Below the pieces are notes generated by a model, which saw nothing but the letters and a program-made list of their open reading frames with translations, did no database searches and was not told where the DNA came from. From Candidatus Thalassarchaeaceae archaeon (GTDB lineage: Archaea > Thermoplasmatota > Poseidoniia > Poseidoniales > Thalassarchaeaceae): a DNA stretch of 44,866 nucleotides. A program made the position numbers and the translations under genes. This document shows, piece by piece, positions 25,211-28,047 of the stretch; position 1 is the stretch's first letter, and the number at the start of each line of letters is the position of its first letter. Location of the stretch: positions 1 through 44,866 of the forward strand of contig JAPYUP010000011.1 of the NCBI GenBank assembly GCA_029940695.1, in the 5' to 3' direction.

Positions 25211-27187
25211 GTGACCATATTCAGCGTCTACATCGATGATGGCTGCATCACCTGCGATGCATGCGAGGAGGCAGCCCCGGATGTCTTCGAAGTTTCCGAC
25301 GACACCTGCTTCATCAAGCCGACAGTCCGAATCGACGGCGGCTTCGACAGAAACATGGACCAGTCGGGCCTCAAGCCCGAAATTATCTCAGCCATGTCTG
25401 ACAACATCCTAGACGCCGCCGAGGCCTGCCCGGTTGATGTCATCATGGTGGTTGAGGGTGAGCCAAGTGAATCTGTTGAACCAGAGGAAGCCCCTGAGCC
25501 CGAGACTCTGGAAGCCGTGCCAGAGGGGGCTGCGGTGGAGGATATCGAAGTCGGTGAGGGCATCGAGCAGATACTGACTGTCGGCGACAGGTCCCTCAAC
25601 ATCCTGTTCGGCTCCCAATCCGGAAATTCCGAGGACCTGTCCGCCAAGCTCGCCAAGCAAGCGAAGGGCTACGGCTTGGAGGGGACGGTCCACGACATGG
25701 ACGGTTTCGACTTCAACTCACTATCTGGGAAGAAGCGGGTTCTGATAGTCTGCTCAACTTGGGGCGAGGGAGAGATGCCCGACAACGCCGAGGAGTTGTG
25801 GCAGTTCGCGAGTTCGGACGCCGCAGCAAGACTGGACGGAGTGCACTTCTCAATCTGCGCCCTGGGGGACACCAGCTACGAGTTCTACTGCGAGTCAGGA
25901 AAGGACTGGGACCGACGACTCGAGCAACTCGGCGCAACACGCCTCGTAGACCGCGTCGACTGCGACGTCGACTATGACTCTCCCGCAGCGGCATGGGCCC
26001 TCGAGGCTCTGCCAACACTGGCCGCTGTCGACGGCACGGGGAAGTTCCGCGAGGACATGGTCGAACCCATCAAGGCCCACATCTCTGGCGACGGCTCTAG
26101 AGGCGCTGAGGGCGAGGACGGATTCACCCTGCCCACCGTTCTCGCTGACTCTATACAAGCGGAAATCACCATATTCAGGTACGATCCAGTCGCTGCCTGC
26201 ACGGGTAAGGACACCTGGATGTGCGCACTGCCCGGCCACCTGTCGGTCCTGGAGGCCCTTCGTACTCTCAAGGACTCGCAGGACGGCTCACTCACGTTCC
26301 GAGACGGCGCTTGCGATGACCCGAACACGGCCATTTCCGTCAACGGACGACTCGTCATGCCCGGCCTGTCCAGACTCGACTCAGTCGCCCCTACTCGCGA
26401 CGGCGCCATCAGAATTCGCATCGAGCCCCTGCCCGGGTTCGACGTCGTGCGAGACCTAGTGATTGACCCGTGGTCGTTGGAGAGGAAGCGCGAGTCGAGT
26501 AAGCCCTGGATGGTCGCAGCCACCCGAGAAGGCGCATCCACGCCACAGGGTCCCATAGGGACCATGGACCCAGCCGCAGCCTCGCACCTCCATTCGGTAA
26601 CCGACTACCAGAGCCAGGCCCTTCTCCACGCCAGCTCCGACGCTGTGCCCCACGCAAACGGCTACCTCGGACCAGCAGTGCTCGTGAGCGCGTGGGCGCG
26701 CAGGAGCGACCCTCGGATATCCCCCCTCAGAAGGTCTGAGATCGATGAACTGATTGGCTCGAGCAATGGCATCAAGGCAGAGACCGACCTTGCCCCGATT
26801 CGGCGCCAGGCCTCGAACGCCCAGGCAATCTCCGACTCACTCCTAGAAGCCAAGAATGCGACGCTGACCAGGGACGCCTACAACGGCAGGCACGGCAAGC
26901 ACGTCTGGTGGTACACCTGGACGATCAAGAGCAGTGGCAGAGTCAATGACACCGTGATCTACCGCCAGGTGCTCGGTCCCGCTGGCCTGCTCGGCAACCT
27001 ATTCTCAGGCGTCACTGCTAGGATGGTGTTCGGATTCACGAGGACCGGCGGCAACATGTTCAACGGCATGCTGGGCATGGTGGCCCCGCCCGCCGGCATC
27101 GGAAAGATGCCCCAGCAGTTCAATTCCTCAGTGGAGAACCATCACGAGGTAGTCGCGATATTCAACGAACTGGACGGGCGATTCTGA
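25211..27187 (+). CDS. Ferredoxin-flavodoxin-SdhB-like fusion whose SdhB part has lost its Fe-S ligands
   Basis: The protein has 658 residues. Residues 1-80 are a single-cluster ferredoxin with Cys12, Cys15, Cys18 and Cys73. Residues 80-125 are an acidic linker. Residues 128-300 are a flavodoxin of the P450-reductase type (LFGSQSGNSEDLS, STWGEGEMPDNAEELW, ALGDTSYEFYCESG). Residues 317-560 align with a whole succinate dehydrogenase iron-sulfur subunit: FRYDP, LTFRDGACDDPN, VNGRLVMPG, PLPGFDVVRDLVIDPW and GYLGPAVLVSAW. In SdhB these regions bind three clusters. Here only Cys368 remains, and no cysteine occurs after it. The last 100 residues are unrecognised and partly hydrophobic. The GTG start follows GAGGAG, and its TGA shares one base with the next ATG, so the two genes are coupled. 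Confidence 0.82.
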   Translation: MTIFSVYIDDGCITCDACEEAAPDVFEVSDDTCFIKPTVRIDGGFDRNMDQSGLKPEIISAMSDNILDAAEACPVDVIMVVEGEPSESVEPEEAPEPETLEAVPEGAAVEDIEVGEGIEQILTVGDRSLNILFGSQSGNSEDLSAKLAKQAKGYGLEGTVHDMDGFDFNSLSGKKRVLIVCSTWGEGEMPDNAEELWQFASSDAAARLDGVHFSICALGDTSYEFYCESGKDWDRRLEQLGATRLVDRVDCDVDYDSPAAAWALEALPTLAAVDGTGKFREDMVEPIKAHISGDGSRGAEGEDGFTLPTVLADSIQAEITIFRYDPVAACTGKDTWMCALPGHLSVLEALRTLKDSQDGSLTFRDGACDDPNTAISVNGRLVMPGLSRLDSVAPTRDGAIRIRIEPLPGFDVVRDLVIDPWSLERKRESSKPWMVAATREGASTPQGPIGTMDPAAASHLHSVTDYQSQALLHASSDAVPHANGYLGPAVLVSAWARRSDPRISPLRRSEIDELIGSSNGIKAETDLAPIRRQASNAQAISDSLLEAKNATLTRDAYNGRHGKHVWWYTWTIKSSGRVNDTVIYRQVLGPAGLLGNLFSGVTARMVFGFTRTGGNMFNGMLGMVAPPAGIGKMPQQFNSSVENHHEVVAIFNELDGRF

Positions 27188-28047
27188 TGGCGCTGAAGTA
27201 CGCATACCACCCCGGCAACGTGGCACACAGCAGCGCTCCGGAGGTGGCGGACACGATGCCGCCCGCCGCCCGCTCTCTGGGCATCGAGCTAATCCCCCTC
27301 GATGGCGCGACGAGCTGCGGGGCGGGGATTATCAGGCAGGCCAACGACATCCTGCAAGTCACCCTGAACGCTAGGACCATGGCTTTGGCCGAGTCGATGA
27401 GCCTCGACATCATCACCCCATGCGCCGCGACGGCGGGAAACCTGCACGAGGATCTGATCCGGCTCAGGAACGACCCCCTGCTGTTAGCGAAGACCAACGA
27501 TGTCCTCAGGAGAACCACCGGCCTCACCCTAGAGGGGACGGTCAGCGTCCACCACCTACTGCACGTGATGGTCGATGAGATTGGCCTCGACAAGGTAGAG
27601 GCGAATGTGAGGAACCCCATGCGGTCTCGCATCGCCGGGTACTATGGCCCGAACATGCAGCAGGAGGGGGCGTGCGGGGACGACGATGTCTACGACCCGA
27701 ACTACTTCGAGCAGCTCATCGAGGCTCTTGGGGGGACACCCGTCGAGTGGGAGAGCAGGACGCAGAGCGTAGGAGTCCCCGGCCTGTTTTCCGAGGAGCC
27801 CACCGTACTACGGCAAGCCGCAGCGGTCATCTCCGATGCCAAGTCAGAGGGCGCGGATATTATCGTCAGCGCATGCACCCTCTCGCACGCCGTCCTCGAC
27901 GTCTACCAGGGCAAGGCTTCCAGAGCCACCGGAATCTCAACCAACCTGCCGGTAATCCACCTGACTGAACTCCTCTCCTTCGCGTTCGGGCATCACAACA
28001 GCAGGCTTGCACAGTTGAGGACCAGAATGGCAGTGATAGGCGACTAG
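27187..28047 (+). CDS. HdrB/SdhE-like CCG-domain protein lacking most cluster cysteines
   Basis: The protein has 286 residues and follows the two-repeat CCG (cysteine-rich) fold of heterodisulfide reductase subunit B and of SdhE/TfrB-type quinone-reductase subunits. First-repeat landmarks are YAYHPGN, ATSCGAGI and TPCAATAGNL; second-repeat landmarks are GYYGPNMQQ, QSVGVPG and VSACTLSHAVLD. In canonical HdrB each repeat binds a noncubane [4Fe-4S] cluster through a CX31-39CCX35-36CxxC pattern. Here only Cys44, Cys79 and Cys229 sit at expected sites (Cys162 is elsewhere). The rest are His/Pro, Gly, Thr, Pro, Ser-Val and Ser. It is translationally coupled to the SdhB-like fusion, the same pairing as SdhB-SdhE, so the two products probably form a complex. 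The function is not known. Confidence 0.8.
   Translation: MALKYAYHPGNVAHSSAPEVADTMPPAARSLGIELIPLDGATSCGAGIIRQANDILQVTLNARTMALAESMSLDIITPCAATAGNLHEDLIRLRNDPLLLAKTNDVLRRTTGLTLEGTVSVHHLLHVMVDEIGLDKVEANVRNPMRSRIAGYYGPNMQQEGACGDDDVYDPNYFEQLIEALGGTPVEWESRTQSVGVPGLFSEEPTVLRQAAAVISDAKSEGADIIVSACTLSHAVLDVYQGKASRATGISTNLPVIHLTELLSFAFGHHNSRLAQLRTRMAVIGD

Follow-up and report, generated by a model that had tools for sequence, protein, structure and literature searches.

The systems closest to the protein described here, P0001, are SdhE of the SdhABE-type succinate dehydrogenase / 8-methylmenaquinol:fumarate reductase (NF042965), the heterodisulfide reductase subunit HdrB (TIGR03288; structures 5odc and 8rvy) and TfrB of thiol:fumarate reductase, an SdhB-CCG fusion. 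We take the ten ligands of HdrB to be C9, C41, C42, C78 and C81 at the first CCG site and C153, C193, C194, C231 and C234 at the second, a numbering that is reportedly that of the Wagner 2017 structure. In this parent family a disulfide binds and is reduced between both CCG sites (PMC5861303), and Cys81 and Cys234 of HdrB bridge the catalytic irons (PMC13083937). Departures from the full ligand set are on record among CCG electron-transfer proteins: one CCG cluster is altered in EtfD, and in FadF and DgcB the cysteines of one are missing (PMC13083937). Targeted searches of the open-access literature returned no report of the protein pair presented below, of order-wide loss of SdhB-SdhE clusters or of a ferredoxin-flavodoxin-SdhB fusion.

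The pair lies in a window of 44,866 nucleotides, the whole stretch of DNA analysed, and comprises the following features:

25211-27187, plus strand: P0002, ferredoxin, flavodoxin and cluster-free SdhB-like region, 658 aa, GTG start (ORF, profiles)
25211-25456, plus strand: [4Fe-4S] ferredoxin domain of P0002; C12, C15, C18 and C73 invariant wherever the domain is present
25592-26080, plus strand: CysJ-type FMN flavodoxin domain of P0002, with invariant phosphate- and ring-binding loops (profiles, structure match)
26144-27184, plus strand: SdhB-derived region of P0002, collinear with the outgroup SdhB, 12 of 12 cluster cysteines replaced
27185-27189, plus strand: TGATG stop/start overlap from P0002 to P0001 (sequence)
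27187-28047, plus strand: P0001, SdhE/HdrB-derived, both CCG sites dismantled, 286 aa, ATG start, TAG stop (ORF, profiles, HdrB alignment, AlphaFold, Foldseek)

Fold, origin and conservation of the gene pair

The initial annotation, made from the sequence alone, held that both CCG repeats of P0001 can be followed and that the gene is coupled by TGATG to an SdhB-like fusion. Both points are borne out, the whole HdrB and SdhE profiles of NCBIfam aligning to residues 4-275 and the overlap lying at the position given above. The scores are 126 bits against the HdrB profile (TIGR03288) and 115 bits against the SdhE profile (NF042965), short of the curated cut-offs of 345 and 500, the latter of which is also missed by the cluster-bearing SdhE of family f6 (215 bits). 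Repeat 1 matches the Pfam CCG family (PF02754) with 32 bits, above the gathering score of 20.6; repeat 2 has no Pfam CCG match above cut-off, and HdrB-like_C stays below cut-off. The AlphaFold2 model of P0001 (pLDDT 90.5, pTM 0.89; 61 aligned sequences) has the HdrB fold, its best Foldseek matches among solved structures being the HdrB chains 8rvy_B and 5odc_B (TM 0.87-0.88, rmsd ~2 Å). P0001 thus belongs to a known family, as a derived variant, and represents neither a new fold nor a new class.

P0001 resembles SdhE in fold, in length, in its collinear profile match (residues 4-274) and in the adjacent SdhB-like gene, but lacks seven of the ten cluster cysteines, and its partner SdhB has none of the 12 cluster cysteines and carries a fused ferredoxin and flavodoxin. 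It shares with HdrB the fold and two traceable repeats; unlike HdrB, it has no HdrA or HdrC adjoining it. The pairing of an SdhB-like with a CCG part recalls TfrB, from which the locus differs in that P0001 and P0002 are separate genes, the cluster ligands are lost and TfrA is absent.

Outside the order, the nearest relatives of P0001 are the SdhE proteins of family f6 (34-38% identity, E values of 1e-44 to 1e-54), which have all ten ligands and are encoded in an SdhA-SdhB-SdhE operon, and the last 347 residues of P0002 can be aligned with the f6 SdhB from one end to the other, C-terminal extension and tail included. These sequence comparisons indicate that P0001 is a metal-stripped descendant of SdhE, sharing common descent with the SdhA-SdhB-SdhE operon, and that P0002 is a metal-stripped SdhB with a ferredoxin and a flavodoxin fused in front, translationally coupled to P0001. 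There is no SdhA among the neighbours of the locus, the only SdhA of the genome being on contig C15. A role for the pair within the main succinate dehydrogenase was ruled out, as the canonical enzyme of this genome is encoded by a separate operon on another contig and has an intact SdhB.

Of 98 related genomes, 85 yielded an orthologue of P0001, among them every one of the 28 Poseidoniales genomes with at least 90% completeness. The sole genus in which none was found is g2, represented by three fragmented genomes (G028, G038, G048), owing either to loss or to incomplete assemblies. Named records carrying P0001, from a separate scan, belong to Poseidoniales, Thalassarchaeaceae and Marine Group II, and include AG-/AH- isolates resembling single-cell genomes as well as MAGs. 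In every stretch checked the gene order is constant, chaperonin (cpn)-P0002-P0001-helicase, followed by L3 where the stretch reaches that far. These neighbours (chaperonin, Hef-like helicase, ribosomal proteins) were considered as pointers to function; they are conserved but offered no hint. The Hef-like helicase beside P0001 (28073-29851) consists of helicase domains only; its relatives in several other genera have an additional C-terminal stretch of ~300-400 residues, apparently a nuclease with a helix-hairpin-helix part.

Loss of motif cysteines, taken alone, could point to a pseudogene or to an assembly or annotation artefact. Such an explanation is barely conceivable here: dN/dS, which the initial annotation had proposed as a check, is 0.016-0.073 in close P0001 pairs (dS 0.2-1.2; one pair at 0.17), i.e. 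strong purifying selection, the protein is full-length in 70 orthologues, and it occurs in apparent single-cell genomes and in MAGs alike. The pseudogene reading was ruled out by dN/dS together with order-wide retention; orthologues in 85 of the 98 genomes and such low dN/dS values also put the gene far outside what chance would produce.

Ligand positions and the order of cluster losses

The codons at the former ligand positions of P0001, with the residues of 70 orthologues, are:

27217-27219, plus strand: N11, ligand 1 of the first CCG; N in 62/70, C in 8/70
27313-27318, plus strand: S43-C44, CC pair of the first CCG; S43 in 60/70, residue 44 C in 48 and D in 22
27421-27432, plus strand: C79-A-A-T82, former CxxC of the first CCG; C79 in 70/70
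27649-27651, plus strand: P155, ligand 1 of the second CCG; P in 61 of the 62 orthologues without the first site, A/S/V/T in the 8 with it
27766-27771, plus strand: S194-V195, CC pair of the second CCG; Cys in 0 orthologues
27874-27888, plus strand: C230-T-L-S233-H234, former CxxC(H) of the second CCG; C230 in 70/70, S233 in 69/70

Aligned with structurally solved HdrB, with all ten HdrB ligand numbers consistent, P0001 has N11, S43, C44, C79 and T82 at the first site and P155, S194, V195, C230 and S233 at the second, so that three of ten ligands are left (C44, C79, C230); a fourth cysteine, C163, is at no ligand position. The initial annotation had arrived at the same number, though its Cys229 is really Cys230, and the replacements it pointed out lie at residues 77-82 (TPCAAT for CxxC) and 227-233 (VSACTLS for PCPLC). 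Unlike in HdrB, the bridging pair Cys81/Cys234 is replaced (T82 and S233), and no noncubane clusters are expected. Per-site conservation among the 70 orthologues sets Cys79 and Cys230, which are invariant, apart from Cys44, which is Asp in 22; these 22 are all the members of family f2 that lost the first site, and in them residue 82 is S or A. His234, beside C230, is invariant in a 27-row alignment, and a new C-terminal tail is conserved among the orthologues (R273, A275, T279, R280, G285).

A complete pair of CCG motifs (10 Cys) is absent from all 70 orthologues, the maximum being six of ten. The annotation had named orthologues with full motifs at the same locus as the finding that would speak against it; such orthologues exist for one of the two motifs. 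The complete first set C11, C43, C44, C79 and C82 is present in eight orthologues at the same locus, in genera g5 (family f1) and g16, g17 and g19 (family f2). The second site is dismantled in all 70, four of its five ligands being gone everywhere, and C230 is no longer held by the old metal site because its four co-ligands are gone in all orthologues. The partner has fared likewise: none of the 12 cluster cysteines of SdhB is conserved in 69 P0002 orthologues (three isolated single-sequence cysteines occur), with two of the former cysteine positions fixed as Ser and Glu, which bears out the claim that both subunits lost their metal sites.

Loss began with the SdhB clusters and the second site, which is gone even in the eight orthologues that keep the first. 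As the 12 SdhB cysteines and the four second-site ligands are absent throughout, they were most simply lost in the order's common ancestor, in which the first site would still have been complete. The first site went later, probably on two occasions, since family f1 forms a single group in the partner's tree and g5 falls within it. The P0001 tree unites all proteins that lost the first site. The AU test against unity of f1 gives p = 0.0096 with all columns and p = 0.197 with the motif columns removed, and the signal for the grouping lies largely in those motif columns. We prefer parallel loss with convergent replacement, to which these comparisons point, over the less likely course of a single loss with gene transfer. 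The proposal of a coordinated change of function, and not decay of one gene, is supported: selection is strongly purifying, the gene is retained across the order at one locus, and both subunits have lost metal ligands yet keep their folds. The initial interpretation stands only in part, as the losses were not simultaneous.

The residues that took the place of the first-site ligands are nearly fixed among the orthologues that lost it (N11 62/62 and S43 60/62, as well as P155 61/62 at the second site), suggesting a new ligand set and not random drift. The old first-site pocket (N11, S43, C44 or D44, C79, T/S82) might accordingly bind a single metal ion or another ligand, and the related CCG protein EtfD does have a linear [3Fe-4S] cluster with fewer cysteines (PMC13083937). 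We regard a different cofactor as quite improbable, since the pocket keeps only one or two cysteines and the ligand set would differ between families, D44 occurring in all 22 of the f2 proteins mentioned above and T82 giving way to S or A.

Cys79 and Cys230 each occupy the leading position of a former CxxC and, as pseudo-symmetry mates, flank the old heterodisulfide pocket. They could act as a redox dithiol/disulfide or as a nucleophile, reduced by the partner's flavodoxin or ferredoxin; the substrate of such a thiol enzyme would be a disulfide or persulfide, in keeping with the disulfide bound and reduced between the two sites in the parent family (PMC5861303). Both cysteines are kept in 70 of 70 orthologues, the order's subtree of 60 sequences spanning 14.9 substitutions per site, despite the disappearance of the other four second-site ligands everywhere and of the first site in 62, and the invariant H234 adjoins C230. 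By count, two of ten sites are unexceptional when 45 of the 287 columns (~16%) are invariant, and precisely the pair that bridges the catalytic irons in HdrB, Cys81 and Cys234 (PMC13083937), has been lost (T82, S233). We consider a thiol enzyme unlikely on balance, but it is a serious candidate and the main rival of the explanation preferred below.

Input modules of the partner protein

Whereas the SdhB/SdhE core is constant, the input modules of the partner vary (ferredoxin-flavodoxin, flavodoxin-flavodoxin, flavodoxin, ferredoxin). The FMN-loop residues G134, Q136, G138, N139, S182, T183, W184, G185, E186, G187, G219 and D220 are invariant in 32 sequences, as are the ferredoxin cysteines where that domain is present. 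The AlphaFold2 model of P0002 is good for the ferredoxin and flavodoxin domains only, the SdhB-like part being mostly at pLDDT 35-70. Redox work in the complex probably falls to these intact modules, which the initial annotation leaves out of account, as it does the contrast between the invariant Cys79 and Cys230 and the variable Cys44. The flavodoxin resembles that of CysJ, with a TM of 0.90 to the flavodoxin domain of E. coli sulfite reductase (1ykg) and a CysJ profile match of 148 bits, but P0002 lacks the FAD/NADPH reductase half of CysJ. A function as electron donor to sulfite reductase was rejected, no sulfite reductase (NIR_SIR) homologue having been found in this genome, and a CysI-type client is unlikely for the same reason.

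The ferredoxin has been replaced repeatedly by a second flavodoxin, with 11 state changes on the tree of the SdhB region, and in the extra flavodoxins' own tree the label changes at least four times. The exchange concerns the domain at 25211-25456 and its relatives (L037, L064, L073, L091, L095 and others). In one Thalassarchaeum genome (L263:1827-3224) the partner is without flavodoxin and consists of ferredoxin and SdhB only (466 aa). Family f3 of the same class, presumably Marine Group III, yielded no SdhB/SdhE core; its stretch L259 has a flavodoxin fused to two [4Fe-4S] sites, 59% identical to the P0002 flavodoxin, adjoined by a CCG protein whose C-terminal motif is intact.

Loss of all clusters from both core subunits could also mean that the pair is a structural relic, or an assembly or regulatory subunit that stabilises or regulates the canonical succinate dehydrogenase or another complex, its ferredoxin and flavodoxin sensing redox state. 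The conserved new C-terminal tail (R273-G285), likely a binding segment, would suit such a role. The FMN and ferredoxin sites, invariant and swapped only for another electron carrier, point instead to electron transfer, and we find this explanation doubtful.

Proposed function and significance

The best explanation, to which we give about an even chance, is that the SdhB/SdhE pair serves as a platform with almost no iron, relaying electrons from its attached carriers to a client enzyme. The contact between SdhB and SdhE would persist in P0002 and P0001, as their co-conservation suggests, and the two would together form the platform; electrons would come in through the tethered ferredoxin, the FMN flavodoxin or both, and go on to a client oxidoreductase docked in the place of the lost SdhA, no longer running through SdhB clusters into SdhE. 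EtfD, FadF and DgcB, in which one CCG cluster is altered or its cysteines are lost and the protein is still taken as functional (PMC13083937), offer a precedent. EtfD differs in that a noncubane cluster and two cubane ones are kept and make up an electron wire, which is gone in P0001 and P0002. No client enzyme was identified, the chaperonin and helicase beside the locus giving no hint. Against a pure platform stands C230, for which it has no obvious need and which is invariant although its metal site is gone. A bolder proposal, which appears rather improbable to us, is a metal-free disulfide or persulfide reductase in which C79/C230 chemistry replaces the two noncubane Fe-S active sites and is fed by the tethered flavodoxin. 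If true, the complex would be completely iron-free in the lineages that exchanged ferredoxin for flavodoxin.

Whichever function applies, P0001 and P0002 have lost the ligands of about five Fe-S clusters (~17 iron atoms, assuming a complete SdhB-SdhE pair as ancestor) and yet are under strong selection. They form a stepwise record of an Fe-S complex becoming nearly iron-free, with the intermediate state alive in four genera. The exchange of ferredoxin for flavodoxin is possibly an iron-sparing switch and could mark low-iron ecotypes. Together with the disappearance of about five clusters, it would agree with selection for low iron use and oxygen tolerance in surface seawater, low-iron selection being a guess from the habitat. 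Marine Group II archaea abound in surface oceans. We know of no isolate of this group, and functions therefore have to be read from genomes. The present locus offers a concrete protein pair to express and test, in which the frame of an old iron-sulfur enzyme seems to serve a new, iron-saving purpose in nearly all Marine Group II archaea.
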